Assembly (NCBI RefSeq): GCF_000020585.3
Contig: NC_011138.3
Span: 4,124,510 to 4,188,509, forward strand
DNA from: Alteromonas mediterranea DE
GTDB lineage: Bacteria > Pseudomonadota > Gammaproteobacteria > Enterobacterales > Alteromonadaceae
DNA length: 64,000 nt
Direction of reading: 5' to 3'
This document shows, one piece after another, positions 49,737 through 60,835 of the stretch; position 1 is the stretch's first letter, and the number at the start of each line of letters is the position of its first letter. The notes under the pieces were generated by a model, which was not told the DNA's origin, searched no databases, and worked only from the letters and a program-made list of their open reading frames with translations. The translations under genes were made by a program, and so were the position numbers.

Positions 49737-51083
49737 ATGAACATATCAATTGTACAAGCAATGATAGATGCAATAGACAAGCCCGCTATTTTCATCAATC
49801 AAAATTACATTATTGAGGCGGTCAATACGCCTTACAGAGATACTTACCCTGTCGATATAAAGCTCGGGTATAGCACCTGTTATCAGGTATCTCATCGAAA
49901 CAATAAGCCCTGTGACCAATGCGGCGAGCAGTGCCCTATGCAGGAAAGTAAAAAGTCGGGCCGGGCAGCAAGTGTGGTGCATATCCATACCACCAGCGAG
50001 GGCCAAAGCTACTGCGACATTCTGATGCGCCCAATCTTCGACGGTCACGGGGATTTAATAGGTTATCTGGAGATTCTAGATAAGCTTGCCTTTGCGTCTA
50101 ACCGCCCCTCTGCTGGAAAAATGATTGGCGAGTCAGAGGCATTTAAAACGATGCTGAATAAAATTAACCGCGCTGCGAACTCAGATATATCTGTTTTACT
50201 GTTTGGTGAAACCGGAACCGGGAAAGAACTGGTGTCTCAGGCTCTACACTCAAGTAGCCATCGGGCTGAAAAACCCTTCGTTGTTATTGAATGCACTGGG
50301 TTGTCTGATGCTTTACTTGAAAGCGAGTTATTCGGCTATGAAAAAGGAGCGTTTACGGGCGCAACCACCAATAAAAAAGGACTGGTAGAGGCGGCTGAGG
50401 GTGGCACTCTATTTTTTGACGAAGTAGGCGATATTCCGCTCGCCATGCAGGTGAAGCTGCTAAGGCTTTTTGAAACCCAAACTTACCGCCCTGTGGGAAG
50501 CGTGATCTCGAAGAAAGCCAATTTTCGGTTGGTGTGCGCATCGCATAAAAATTTAAAGCAAATGGTCGAAAAGGGGGAATTCAGGCGTGACCTTTACTAT
50601 CGAATAGCCGGCTTCCCTATCAATCTTCCGTCCTTACGAGAAAGAAAGTCAGATATTGCACTGATTGCAGCGCATTTTTTAGCCCAGTCCCACGAGAAAA
50701 AGCGTTTTCATAAAAAAGCCCTCGAAAAATTAAGCAGCTACGCCTTTCCGGGCAATATTCGCGAGTTGCGCAATATCGTTGATCAAGCAGTATTACTTGC
50801 CGATGAGCCCGTGATCTACGAGTCGGACCTCCCCGTGTTAGACGAGTTCATCGGCGAGGATAACGCTTCAATGGAGGGTAGAAACGATCAATACCCACTA
50901 ACAACAAACGGAGTTAATCTTGGCAAGGATATTATGACTCTGAACGAGGTAGAAGACACTTATCTTGCTCAGGTAGCAAGCACCTTTAAAGGCGATATAA
51001 ACAGCCTCGCAGACGCACTAGGCGTGAGCACCCGCACGCTTTACCGAAAACTAAAAAAAGCCGGTGTTAAAGAACTTAATTAA
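49737..51083 (+). CDS. Sigma-54-dependent activator with Cys-containing PAS-like domain
   Basis: 448 residues. N-terminal PAS-like domain (about 1-118) with cysteines at 48, 59, 62 and 66 in CYQVSHRNN and [12 protein letters not shown]; an AAA+ domain follows with Walker A GETGTGKE (about 158-165) and the sigma-54 contact loop GAFTGA (about 206-211); a Fis-type helix-turn-helix ends the protein ([20 protein letters not shown]). No receiver domain, so it senses directly. The Cys cluster might bind metal, haem or an Fe-S cluster, or sense redox. Beside the cyd genes, it probably activates cytochrome bd synthesis. Confidence 0.9.
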
Positions 51084-55037: not shown

Positions 55038-55127
55038 ATGCCTAAAAACACTAATATACATACTGCTTTCTCAGCGTCTGCGCTGATTATTATTCTCGCT
55101 ATTCTAAGGAATGGGCGGGTTAGCTAG
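55038..55127 (+). CDS. Leader peptide, Ile/Leu-rich, of an attenuator
   Basis: A 29-codon frame, MPKNTNIHTAFSASA, followed by an Ile/Leu run (three consecutive ATT codons, then CTC, GCT, ATT, CTA) and ending RNGRVS. Its last codons are the 5' arm of the antiterminator stem. The layout matches amino-acid attenuators of branched-chain operons. Against it, I see no purine-rich ribosome site just before the ATG, so translation is not assured. Confidence 0.45.
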   Translation: MPKNTNIHTAFSASALIIILAILRNGRVS

Positions 55128-55172
55128 TGCGTAAATAGAATTCACTAAACCCGCCGCAAAGGCGGGTTTTTT
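55114..55172 (+). promoter_or_regulatory. Transcription attenuator: overlapping antiterminator and terminator stems
   Basis: GGCGGGTT at 55114-55121 can pair with AACCCGCC at 55148-55155, helped by TAGTG / CACTA inside. The same AACCCGCC can instead pair with GGCGGGTT at 55161-55168 to give a terminator ending in six T (55167-55172). The two structures exclude each other. A ribosome finishing the leader would mask the first arm and favour termination; stalling at Ile/Leu codons would favour readthrough. Confidence 0.65.
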
Positions 55173-56852: not shown

Positions 56853-57359
56853 TTGGAGAAAATCGCCACCACGGATTCATTAACTCGCTTGTTCAACAGG
56901 GGTAAGACGATAGAGCTACTTGAAGCTCGTATGAATGAATTACCGCATAAAAGCAATAAATGCGCAGTGGCAATGTTAGATATCGACCTTTTTAAAACTA
57001 TTAATGATAAGTATGGCCATTGTGTGGGCGACGATGCGCTAAAACTCTTCGCTGCTACAGCAAAGCAAAACTTCTCGGCGAGTGTTGATATGGGACGGCT
57101 AGGTGGCGAAGAGTTTCTTTTTATCTTTCAAGGTGTCGATGTAAGCGAGACCGTTAAGCAGCTTGAAACCTTCAGTCAATCACTGAAAGACGCTTCTATT
57201 AAAGCACTAGGTGGGGAAATCAAACTCACTTTTTCAGCGGGTGTTTTATTACTTACAGAAGCGCAAAGCATTTCTTCTGTTTTAGAGAAAACCGACGGCG
57301 CGCTTTACGAAGCTAAAGAAACCGGTAGAGACAAAATAGTCGTATTTACCTGTTTGTAA
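56853..57359 (+). CDS. Isolated GGDEF domain (diguanylate cyclase), likely truncated
   Basis: 168 residues of GGDEF domain only: ATTDSLTRLFNRGKT, DIDLFKTINDKYGH and the active-site RLGGEEF (about 82-88). The residues before GGEEF do not form a clear RxxD inhibition site. The frame has a stop nine bases before the TTG at 56853, and the first residues correspond to the usual linker into GGDEF domains, so any sensor part is missing. It would make c-di-GMP if expressed; it could be a decayed gene. No clear ribosome site. Confidence 0.7.
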   Translation: MEKIATTDSLTRLFNRGKTIELLEARMNELPHKSNKCAVAMLDIDLFKTINDKYGHCVGDDALKLFAATAKQNFSASVDMGRLGGEEFLFIFQGVDVSETVKQLETFSQSLKDASIKALGGEIKLTFSAGVLLLTEAQSISSVLEKTDGALYEAKETGRDKIVVFTCL

Positions 57360-57529
57360 TTTCATACAACCTGATGTGAAAAAAATACACTGTCATTTGC
57401 GTTCTCGTGACCTTCACTCAGCTCACACTTCCCACCCTACGCAAAAAAACTTTTAAAAACAAAATATTAAACAATTTTAATCCTAATCTAGTTATTTGGC
57501 ACAGATCACGCATACATTAGACTAACGGA

Positions 57530-58028
57530 TAATGATAGAGTGCAGCTTGTAGCCAGGAAGGCTTTAGCGACGGAGAGGCCAAACTGCGTAAGTGAAAAAA
57601 TACTGAAGGTGACGACATAGGAAGTGCATGGAATGGTCGCCAAGGATAAACGGAAACGTCAGTATTATAGCTTTAGGATGACTGTTGAAGGTTCGTTATT
57701 TGCTGGTCGATGATGAGGTTAGGGAAAAGAAAACCTAGATAAACTCGCAGGATGCATCGCACTTGTTTCATAGGGATTGCAAACAAGTTCAGGAGTACCT
57801 ACATCGTAAGCACTGACAGTGATGTCTCGTGCAGCAAGGGATTGTTGACCCTATTTGGATTTGTTGAAATACATGTGTGTTGTTTCGGCAGAACCATAGT
57901 GAGGACACTGGTAACGTCGTCGACGTTATTAGTGAGTTGTCACTCGACGACTACCCTCTCCCCTCAAAGGCCCATCCCGGCCTTTACATACCTCTGATTT
58001 TGGCCCGCCTTTGGCGGGCATTTTTTTA
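57530..58028 (+). ncRNA. csrB: CsrB-like regulatory RNA
   Basis: About 500 bases with no real gene. The plus strand carries about 15 GGA triplets, many as AGGA or AGGGA in hairpin loops, e.g. ACTTGTTT-AGGGA-AAACAAGT (about 57762-57788) and AGGTT-AGGGA-AAACCT (about 57716-57736), while TCC is nearly absent. This is the hallmark of CsrB/C RNAs, which sequester the translational repressor CsrA. A GTCGTCGA / TCGACGAC stem at about 57917-57950, a GGCC hairpin, and a GCCCGCC / GGCGGGC terminator followed by seven T close the transcript. The start near 57530 rests on a TTGGCA-N16-TAGACT promoter, weakly. Confidence 0.75.
58003..58027 (+). terminator. Terminator of the CsrB-like RNA
   Basis: GCCCGCC, TTT loop, GGCGGGC, then A and seven T. 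It lies 58 bases before the MFS gene, so it ends the RNA and not that gene's transcript. Confidence 0.92.
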
Positions 58029-58084
58029 TCTGTACTTATGATAGAATACTCGGGTTCTATAGCCTTATTTTAAGAGCCGATAGC

Positions 58085-59305
58085 GTGCCACTGCCACCGT
58101 CTTCCACCCTTGTTTTTAAAGTGCTTTTTTGCGCCTTACTTGCCACGTCTGTGGGGCAAAGCGTTATGCTTACCACCCTGCCATCTATGGGCCGTGAAGC
58201 AAATCTTACTGAATTTCACATCGCAACGATTATGTCGAGTTCAGCATTTATTTTCGCCTTTGGTACCAATTTATGGAGCAAAGTGGCCAAAAGAGCAGGG
58301 TTTAAGCGTATTCTTATGGTAGGCCTTACCGGCTATAGCTTAGGTACGTTTGCATTCGCAAGCGCTTGGATGGCAGGGTTTTCTGGGTTAATAAGCGGCA
58401 CTAACTTATTTCTTGCCTTGTTGATAAGTCGCAGCATGCAATCAACTATTATGTCTGCCACGCCCCCTTCGGCGGTGGGCTATGCCATAGCAATAAGCAC
58501 ACCCGAAACACGTGTGAGCGCCATCAGTAAGGTTACCTCCGCAAGTAACGTAGGCCAAATAATCGGCCCCGCTTACGCTGGACTGCTGGTGAGTTTTGGC
58601 CTACTCGCCCCCTTATACAGTATCGTGCTGTTAACGCTGTTAGCACTGACGCTTGTTTATTTTAAACTACCCGACCTACCGCCCTTAGGTGCACAAAAGA
58701 CATCTGCTGATCTGAAACGCGATGAAGAAGCAAAAACTATCGTTCCGTATATATTTGTGGCGGCGTGTATTTGTGTGTTTTGCGCCATGGCAATGATGCA
58801 ACAGTCCCTAGGGTTCTTCTTCATTGATTACTATCATTTTACCCCTGTAGATGCAGCCCAACAGGTTGGCTTTGCTATGATGGTGAGTGCTGCTACTTCA
58901 CTTACCGTGCAATTTGGATGGGTACAAAAAGGGCGAATAAGTAAAGAAACCATGATTACCCTTGCCTTACCTTTACTAGCTCTTGCTTATTTACTTCTAT
59001 TTCTACAACATTCACTGACTATTTTGTACCTGGCTATGGCTCTGATGGGCTTAGGTATGGGTATGGCCTATCCGTCACTTGCCGCTGCGGCAACCACCTT
59101 TTGTGCGCCCGGACAGCAAGCTAGGATCACGGGTCTGATTACGGCAACGACCGCCATGGGCTATATCGTAGGGCCTCCGTTCGCCGCATTTATCTACCAG
59201 ATAAATATCGCTTACCCTTTTGCAGCGGCATCGCTTTTATTAGCGGTAACGGCCTGCATGACTTTTATCACGCTTAGGCACGTCAAACAATCTACTAATA
59301 ACTAG
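58085..59305 (+). CDS. MFS transporter, drug:H+ antiporter-like
   Basis: 406 residues, 12 membrane segments, DHA1-like motif in loop 2-3 (SKVAKRAGFKRILMVG) and helix 5 (GQIIGPAYAGLL). The start is a GTG at 58085 with a weak site. It may export a small molecule; its place next to the Fur-controlled SIP gene hints at a siderophore or related export, but a terminator and separate promoter separate them. Confidence 0.8.
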   Translation: MPLPPSSTLVFKVLFCALLATSVGQSVMLTTLPSMGREANLTEFHIATIMSSSAFIFAFGTNLWSKVAKRAGFKRILMVGLTGYSLGTFAFASAWMAGFSGLISGTNLFLALLISRSMQSTIMSATPPSAVGYAIAISTPETRVSAISKVTSASNVGQIIGPAYAGLLVSFGLLAPLYSIVLLTLLALTLVYFKLPDLPPLGAQKTSADLKRDEEAKTIVPYIFVAACICVFCAMAMMQQSLGFFFIDYYHFTPVDAAQQVGFAMMVSAATSLTVQFGWVQKGRISKETMITLALPLLALAYLLLFLQHSLTILYLAMALMGLGMGMAYPSLAAAATTFCAPGQQARITGLITATTAMGYIVGPPFAAFIYQINIAYPFAAASLLLAVTACMTFITLRHVKQSTNN

Positions 59306-59503
59306 TGCAATAGCAAGGGCTTGGCTATACCCATTTGGCGTCTGCTTTGTTTACAAATAAGAAAGGTATTTATTTTTTTACCTTTTATTTTTAATTAAGC
59401 GGAACCTTTTGTGATTTAGGCTATCTTACTAAGTACATGAAGTCGTTGAGTGTGCGTCTTTGTGGTGTGTAAATGTGTTTTCCAAGTTATGTTGTGGTTT
59501 TTT

Positions 59504-59525
59504 AAGGGGCTTCATGCCCCTTTTT
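59504..59525 (+). terminator. Terminator after the MFS gene
   Basis: AAGGGGC / GCCCCTT with a TTCAT loop, then T. It is 200 bases after the MFS stop codon, leaving a long 3' region that could itself be a small RNA. Confidence 0.75.
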
Positions 59526-59626
59526 CTTTGTCTCGAGTTTACTCCCAAGCCTATTAGTATTTCCTTCTATCAATCGATAAACCCGAATTTAATATTCTTT
59601 TTCGTTCCACCTTTAGATATGGTAAT

Positions 59627-60449: not shown

Positions 60450-60643
60450 TCTCGCCCCATGTAGGGTTTGCAACGCGTTGTAAATCCTGCATAAAACCAC
60501 TTAAGCCTCTGCCCCTTAATTTATTAAAAACCCCGACATTTCAGTAGCCTACACATTGGAATATGACTTGCTGCAGTTAAAGTAACTGGCCGGTTTTCTA
60601 TGACCAGTTTTTTAGCCAGTTGTTTAGATAAGGAGAGCACGTT

Positions 60644-60835
60644 ATGAACAATGATCGTATTGAAGGTAATTGGAAAGAGATGAAAGGTAAGGTGCAACAG
60701 AAATGGGGCAAGCTTACCGATGACGACCTAGATGTTATTGACGGTCGCCGTGAAGAACTAGTAGGTAAAATTCAGCAAGAATACGGTAAAAGCCGTGATG
60801 AAGCTGAGAAAGAAGTGGATGCATATTTCAATTAA
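60644..60835 (+). CDS. CsbD-family stress protein
   Basis: 63 residues: RIEGNWKEMKGKVQQKWGKL, then DGRREELVGKIQQEYG, the CsbD family signature. Members are small, helical, induced by general stress; function unknown. Strong AAGGAGAG site. Upstream at about 60584-60622 a repeated AACTGG / CCAGTT could form alternative hairpins. A terminator follows at 60936-60969. Confidence 0.92.
   Translation: MNNDRIEGNWKEMKGKVQQKWGKLTDDDLDVIDGRREELVGKIQQEYGKSRDEAEKEVDAYFN

Follow-up and report, generated by a model that had tools for sequence, protein, structure and literature searches.

We analysed 64,000 nucleotides of the chromosome of Alteromonas mediterranea DE (4,480,937 bases), a stretch henceforth referred to as the window. 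We take AltDE of PMC4223743 to be the strain that now bears this name. The locus of interest, at ~4.182 Mb, lies in an intergenic gap of 725 bases (57360-58084), the length that the original prediction had given, between a gene for a GGDEF protein (56853-57359) and a gene for an MFS transporter (58085-59305). The GGDEF protein is the c-di-GMP enzyme that had been said to be encoded next door. Across 14 clade-A sequences, the conservation of the locus has sharp edges at TGGCAC and past the T-run. Its features are given in Table 1.

Table 1. Predicted features of the RNA locus, with positions in the window
Feature	Positions	Strand	Remarks
Primary transcript, ~505 nt	57523..58027	+	Start predicted by the -12 element and end by the terminator
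Upstream box, possible sigma54 activator (enhancer-binding protein) site, GTnTGtAA..ACAc....AAAA..TaCa	57352..57395	+	Score of 30.0 in the window
Sigma54-type -24/-12 promoter TGGCAC-AGATC-ACGCA (GG-N10-GC)	57497..57512	+	Conserved across loci
Array of 15 GGA, presumed CsrA sites	57527..57905	+	13 belong to the clade consensus, from which the GGAs at 57723 and 57792 are absent
5' stem with inner hairpin AGCC-AGGA-AGGCT (57551-57563), AGGA in the loop	57540..57589	+	Covarying: double-sided changes in 4 pairs (helix 1) and 1 pair (helix 2)
Two-part stem around four GGAs	57599..57666	+	Helices 3 and 4: 2 pairs each changed on both sides
Mini-hairpin GC-AGGAT-GC	57747..57755	+	Two pairs, invariant
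Hairpin CTTGTTTCA-TAGGGAT-TGCAAACAAG, GGA in the loop	57762..57787	+	99.2% of cells in helix 6 paired; no pair changed on both sides
3' module (sRNA-like), conserved	57928..58027	+	Model R1, 118.9 bits in the window; parts in order in the next row
Parts of the 3' module: hairpin; C-rich CCTCTCCCCTC (57955-57965); hairpin (57966-57985); ACCTCTGATTTT (57990-58001); terminator stem (58003-58019); T-run		+	
Spurious 81-aa ORF	57752..57997	+	By eye, the middle part resembles the ancestral BON frame

We searched 59 genomes of the genus with the DNA of the interval, and 41 of them contain all or part of it. From 41 sequences we built a covariance model of the 3' end (R1), which matched 46 loci in 45 of the 59 genomes at ≥53 bits; the remaining matches scored ≤32 bits and were taken as generic terminators. 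The 46 loci were sorted into 8 intact coding, 26 long non-coding, 3 partial and 9 short forms (180-302 nt). Measured from promoter to CTCTGA, 18 of the long non-coding forms have 485-496 nt and 8 have 626-645 nt. In the 38 loci that are not intact coding genes the frame is broken, partial or deleted, and the sigma54-type promoter and the 3' module remain. Counts of promoters, 3' ends and upstream boxes refer to 41 of the 46 loci. The other five (G027 and G050, missed by the 3' motif, and G013, G015 and G043, found later) were added to the comparisons of the middle hairpin, the GGA triplets and the promoter. One genome, G033, has two copies of the locus (L012 and L072) 24 kb apart, each with promoter and 3' module.

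Sigma54 promoters are laid out with GG at -24 and GC at -12. The pattern TGGCA-N8-GC was present in 41 out of 41 loci and in four of the five added ones; in loci with several matches we took the one whose distance fitted. In the fifth added locus, G050, the sequence is TGGTAC by eye, with the same GG-N10-GC. Because the bare motif occurs at chance frequency in the window, the argument for sigma54 rests on its position and conservation. The 41 loci have their best upstream-box match 122-147 nt ahead of the -24 box, a distance at which activators of sigma54 promoters bind. Scored with a weight matrix trained on these same 41 loci, 37 exceed the maximum of the shuffled controls, and G054, G032, G002 and G019 do not. 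A first pattern for the box had no match in the own genome and missed its own site too. The second pattern found this site alone, with one match in the reversed control. The locus has the sequence attributes of a sigma54 transcript, namely a conserved -24 GG and -12 GC and an activator-like box upstream, from which we infer the use of sigma54 and of an activator. Elsewhere in the window, the gene at 49737-51083 encodes, by eye, a protein of the sigma54 activator type, with a PAS-like Cys-rich N-terminus, an AAA+ domain with GAFTGA and a Fis-type C-terminus. This protein scored below the cut-off of all of the best 25 of the 27 NCBIfam models matched, and nothing links its gene to the RNA promoter.

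The original prediction described about 15 GGA triplets and almost no TCC on one strand. We counted 14 GGA and 2 TCC in 57530-58028, both TCC in the C-rich 3' end, and found the fifteenth GGA at 57527. The number of GGAs alone is weakly above that in dinucleotide shuffles (9.8 ± 2.3, p 0.05). An A stands at -1 or -2 of 14 of the 15 body GGAs, compared with 4.2 ± 1.9 in shuffles (z 5.3). Both strands were scanned over 344 kb of the 4.48 Mb, made up of the window and of 280 kb that surround csrA and the Aln1 locus. Here ≥12 A(N)GGA per 430 nt occurred at two places only: the RNA locus, with 15, and the Aln1-like locus, which reaches 46. The 13 consensus GGAs are intact in 97% of the sequences, as opposed to 71 ± 6% for local control triplets (0 out of 20,000 reach this level), and over the 7 sites of the variable part the values are 98% and 65 ± 9%. 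Among all triplets with ≥5 occurrences, GGA is the most conserved. The orthologous intervals carry the expected enrichment in all 26 long non-coding loci, window included (z 3.3-5.3). Short forms such as G019, G020 and G038 show no GGA enrichment, with 0-1 GGA in the body and the promoter and 3' module kept. The array is, as read from these forms, not the most widely kept function of the locus, and we rejected it as a universal function across the genus because several short forms are without it.

Ten of the 13 GGAs are fully unpaired in the consensus fold, compared with 26% of other triplets (p 2.5e-4). GGAs lie in AGGA and TAGGGAT loops (Table 1), as in the AGGA and AGGGA hairpin loops proposed originally. 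The consensus structure has 98.7% of its cells paired, and slid controls pair at 29-46%. As the structure was derived from the same alignment, the slid control favours it and the double changes are the stronger point: 11 pairs are changed on both sides, compared with 5.4 ± 1.5 in shuffles. Further pair types are no more numerous than in shuffles (46 vs 44.0 ± 1.7; 95 out of 500). The RNA has multiple, enriched and conserved A(N)GGA sites, mostly unpaired in or between conserved stems, which are attributes of the functional class of CsrB/RsmZ-type sRNAs. The minimum-energy fold of the window RNA has a z of -2.4, and 0 of 100 shuffles were equally low. It pairs the 5' GGAGAGG (57572-57578) with CCTCTCC (57955-57961) inside the 3' module, a pairing that is absent from the consensus fold, and body and 3' module might mask each other in this way.

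Some of the weaker matches of the DNA search are intact genes of 186-191 codons. Two of these, scanned with Pfam, each contain a pair of BON domains (PF04972, E 2.9e-34 and 4.6e-30), and the best NCBIfam model for one of them is OsmY, below its cut-off. In a protein search, 8 genomes had an intact copy in place and 6 further ones a BON remnant interrupted by 3-10 stops; most genomes, the own genome included, also have an intact BON gene elsewhere. The paralog of the own genome (L060), which is intact, has TGGCA-N8-GC ~70 bases before the match, and the upstream box was not found there. The window interval has no open frame with BON domains (PF04972), and the best tblastn match of the window to BON is not significant (E 0.16). 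Weak tblastn matches were obtained in the clade-A relatives G028, G040, G021 and G001 (E 1e-4 to 6e-4). Given that the BON trace in the window and its relatives is weak or not significant, descent rests on place, the shared 3' end, the promoter type and the intermediates. Synteny, the shared 3' end and the intermediates demonstrate, at the level of sequence, that the RNA descends from a BON gene.

We assessed whether the locus still codes. Substitutions over the aligned body are spread evenly by phase (180/165/164), without three-base periodicity, and each of the 48 gap runs has a length of 1 base. The ORF at 57752-57997, which had been suspected to be a false gene, has no Pfam match. ORFs of 65-94 aa do cover the 3' half in 13 of the 14 clade-A loci, and a short protein from the body could in principle be the product; their ends vary between loci, and together with the lack of Pfam match (for the window ORF), the flat periodicity and the single-base gaps this makes the protein a very improbable product. 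The mean identity of the body is 85.9%, compared with 36.3% (MFS) and 50.4% (dnaB) at four-fold sites, and the body is higher in 66 out of 66 pairs (12 of the 14 clade-A sequences, both G033 copies being left out). Frame-broken BON remnants in the same place would suit a decaying pseudogene that is now functionless. The identity of the body, far above four-fold sites in every pair, the covariation and the kept promoter and terminator leave next to no probability for this reading, and for clade A the conservation tests refute it. By these comparisons, the locus in the clade of the window no longer codes, its RNA is under strong selection, and the GGAs and stems are themselves selected.

We placed the forms of the locus on a dnaB tree of 57 of the 59 genomes (G035 gave no match and G057 a split match). 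The tree was made by a quick method with a midpoint root, and several of its deep forks are weak. The 25 genomes with long non-coding forms and the short-form G038 make up one clade (SH-aLRT 92). Nearest to it are G039 and G053, both without the locus (support 97), followed by the coding G005 and G031 at an unsupported fork (1). The distribution of coding and non-coding forms needs at least five changes on this tree, and the frame was thus probably lost several times. The simplest account of these sequences would be that the frame was lost once, long ago, in the clade of the window and was lost or deleted separately elsewhere.

A(N)GGA exceeds synonymous-codon shuffles in 5 of the 8 coding copies (p 0.010, 0.012, 0.001, 0.020 and below 0.001). 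There is no such excess in the coding copies of G008, G016 and G030 (p 0.79, 0.51 and 0.92) or in any of 7 paralogs tested (p 0.34-0.84), which were chosen from 23 paralog loci (L038-L060) with the longest fitting frame taken. The excess in coding copies suggests that, at least in part of the genus, the BON mRNA may have been a CsrA ligand before the protein was lost.

The 3' module is kept in all 46 loci, coding or not. Constant in it are the C-rich stretch, the middle hairpin and CTCTGA (41 out of 41). The middle hairpin folds in 41 out of 41 loci with letters that differ between groups, weakly in G010 (-1.6 kcal/mol). The first hairpin and the terminator stem likewise keep their pairing through changed letters; the closing pair of the terminator is changed on both sides in 7 of 41 loci and broken or gapped in 6 of 41. 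The terminator, already described as strong, is kept in 14 out of 14 clade-A sequences. A conserved structured module at and after the stop codon, with a terminator, is what characterizes a 3' UTR-derived sRNA. The terminator end bears a weak likeness to suhB/mmgR, a C-rich single strand between hairpins, and membership of that family (RF00519) was rejected at 30.9 bits for a cut-off of 41. In a sample of the family we found the module in 15 of 295 genomes, all of the same genus and none outside; this search scored 13 candidates per genome, so that weak relatives may be missed. A pattern scan for the 3' end in named genomes yielded 95 stretches, of which 80 were listed. Of these 80, 18 are in Alteromonas, Salinimonas or Aestuariibacter. 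We took the remaining 62 as chance; they come from many phyla, with a few in other Gammaproteobacteria.

This breadth raises the possibility that the selected product is the 3' module itself, a sigma54-dependent, probably Hfq-type sRNA from the BON 3' UTR, with the body as a leader whose GGAs serve folding or stability. The short forms, which keep little beyond the promoter, and the three stems that pair despite changed letters agree with this. Transcription from a sigma54-dependent promoter is known for glnA. The accessible part of PMC9731577 describes GlnZ, which comes from the glnA 3' UTR, and SroC, which is released from the 3' UTR of gltI in an operon with a sigma54-dependent promoter. 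Both are precedents for an sRNA in an mRNA 3' UTR and, for gltI, for such a promoter, but their host genes still code and that part of the paper mentions no GGA array. However, the long-form body is strongly conserved and GGAs are its best-kept triplets, which would not be needed in a leader. We therefore consider the module as sole selected product unlikely, while giving it some weight.

The proposal that the RNA works like CsrB stood in part. The kept GGAs, mostly unpaired, and the covarying stems support it; the covariance check did not, with no RF00018 match in 57200-58300 at E ≤ 10. In the whole genome RF00018 gave one chance-level match elsewhere (10.4 bits, cut-off 71), and no Rfam family, CsrB included, reached its gathering score at 57523-58027. 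Like CsrB and CsrC, the RNA has many GGAs, many of them unpaired, an intergenic place and a terminator. Unlike them, it has a sigma54-type promoter, descent from an mRNA and an extra 3' module.

The genome has one csrA above the Pfam cut-off. The GGA-dense locus G000:C1:1062110-1062740 (L190), at ~1.062 Mb and 173 kb before csrA, contains 47 GGA and 1 TCC in 630 nt, and we took it as Aln1 by position and GGA content. The GGA density of the RNA locus, 15 in 407 nt, is about half of this. We also searched for a GacA/UvrY box, using what we take to be its consensus. The best match upstream of the RNA has 3 mismatches, and one upstream of the Aln1-like locus has 2; the number of matches was at chance both in the window and there. 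AltRN1 (1066159 in strain DE1, accessible part of PMC4223743) matches the Aln1-like locus by position. In A. macleodii Te101, three start sites within 404 bp define Aln1a-c (PMC5864184, accessible part), and the GGA-dense stretch is longer than this 404-bp region. Aln1a-c, which are Alteromonas CsrA-antagonist RNAs with A(N)GGA in single-stranded regions, resemble our RNA. The RNA locus was rejected as Aln1 itself: within this genome, what we take for Aln1/AltRN1 lies elsewhere (~1.062 vs 4.182 Mb) and has ~2 times the GGA density and no 3' module.

The accessible part of PMC11882849 describes Pf1-Pf3 of Pseudoalteromonas fuliginea, Csr RNAs of Alteromonadales that are lineage-specific and carry 25, 21 and 9 GGAs; Pf3 binds CsrA and acts against it with its 9, a number that the 15 of the RNA locus exceed. 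Compared by description only, they differ in that this part mentions neither descent from a protein gene nor a sigma54 promoter. The RNA might instead be a CsrA target, bound without meaningful sequestration and protected or exposed by CsrA. The denser Aln1-like locus in the same genome is compatible with this, as is Spot 42, cited as protected by CsrA (PMC11882849), but 13 kept sites exceed what a simple target needs and the activity of Pf3 speaks for a sponge, so that we hold a mere target to be improbable. Titration of CsrA by mRNAs is described for flaA and the fim leader (PMC4894983, accessible part). The flaA mRNA of Campylobacter jejuni resembles the proposed ancestor as an mRNA that also titrates CsrA; it differs in that flaA still codes and has its sites in the leader.

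On balance, the reading that we favour, and consider probable, is that a sigma54-driven dual-function BON mRNA became an untranslated CsrA-binding RNA with a 3' sRNA, and that it is now a CsrA sponge accessory to the Aln1-like RNA. That CsrA is the partner, that the net effect is sequestration and that the 3' module acts are points that we infer. In the proposed mechanism, an enhancer-binding protein would open the sigma54-type promoter on some signal, and the ~505-nt untranslated RNA would accumulate. Over the first 400 nt, the A(N)GGA sites in and between hairpins would bind CsrA dimers and remove CsrA from target mRNAs, in an accessory role next to the denser Aln1-like RNA; with half the GGA density of that locus, titration could be minor. 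Such an RNA might control carbon use, motility and biofilm, as the original prediction proposed. Several results speak against the favoured reading: no Rfam CsrB match, short forms without the array, three coding copies without GGA excess, further pair types at the level of shuffles, a sigma54 motif at chance frequency by itself, an upstream box with a single site in the genome and, if AltRN2 (below) is this RNA, a level in DE that stays flat on starvation. The last 100 nt would form a separate sRNA-like module, probably released or used in place, whose C-rich, anti-Shine-Dalgarno-like stretches may pair with purine-rich ribosome-binding sites. The ancestor would have been the mRNA of a small, stress-type BON-domain (OsmY-like) protein with the 3' module and, in part of the genus, excess GGA; the protein was presumably lost and the RNA functions stayed.

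To our knowledge, the origin of bacterial regulatory RNAs is poorly documented. The broader claim would be that an mRNA that also served as a CsrA sponge ceased to encode its protein, probably on repeated occasions, and turned into a pure regulatory RNA that puts Csr titration under sigma54 control; we see the chances of this as evenly balanced. If true, this would be a non-coding RNA gene that arose in bacteria from a protein-coding one, with its coding, decaying and non-coding states all present within a single genus. With 8 coding, 26 long non-coding, 3 partial and 9 short forms around constant landmarks, the passage from mRNA to RNA gene is directly testable. If CsrA binds, the Csr system of marine copiotrophs would receive, through this locus, an input from sigma54 and its activator. 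The combination of GGA array, 3' sRNA and sigma54 promoter with loss of the protein was not found in the mainly open-access literature that we covered. In that literature, with the supplement of PMC5864184 excluded, we found no description of the locus other than a probable one, AltRN2. The supplements of PMC5864184 hold 127 chromosomal sRNAs of Te101, according to the accessible part of that paper.

Across the chromosome, the RNA locus of DE lies 258 kb past the alpha-operon leader. It is 88.6% identical to its counterpart in G021, presumably A. macleodii ATCC 27126. An RNA-seq study of 2014 (PMC4223743, accessible part) reports AltRN2, a 309-nt transcript without database match at 4312594-4312902 of strain DE1, with an identity of >99% in deep strains and 87-88% in surface strains. 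The identity to surface strains, the late chromosomal place and expression in both DE and DE1 agree with the RNA locus. AltRN2 differs in its length (309 nt vs 505 predicted), and its coordinates are those of DE1, where it was reported as a transcript without homology. Its distance past the alpha-operon leader is 248 kb in DE1, and a DE/DE1 difference of ~10 kb must be assumed if the two are the same. We consider it likely, not certain, that AltRN2 is this RNA, which answers the call of the original prediction for a transcript to that extent. The RPKM of AltRN2 in DE was 949-1393, with no rise on starvation (1168 in minimal medium, 1048 starved), and in DE1 it ranged from 293 to 41812, the latter under carbon starvation at low coverage (PMC4223743). 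The locus would thus give a probable identity to an unexplained transcript that is higher under carbon starvation in DE1, not in DE.

Another gap of the window contains a match to Rfam P9 (RF00624, 'Pseudomonas sRNA P9') at 55086-55170 (44.7 bits, cut-off 43). As a candidate for AltRN2 this gap fits less well, at 93.1% identity to G021 over 247 bases vs the 87-88% reported. Further downstream, the MFS gene is followed by a gap of 370 bases, in which 177 (59362-59538) are ~90% identical to G021, with flanking matches at 73-77%, and are a candidate for another non-coding element on this pattern of identity. In A. macleodii Te101 at high salinity, RpoN is among the upregulated sigma factors (PMC5864184, accessible part). 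A sigma54-like TGGAATATGACTTGCT with 2 mismatches, a class that occurs at chance frequency, is located at 60557-60572 and begins 87 bases upstream of a CsbD gene (60644-60835); in strain DE1 under starvation, a csbD gene ranks with the most highly expressed ones (PMC4223743, accessible part).
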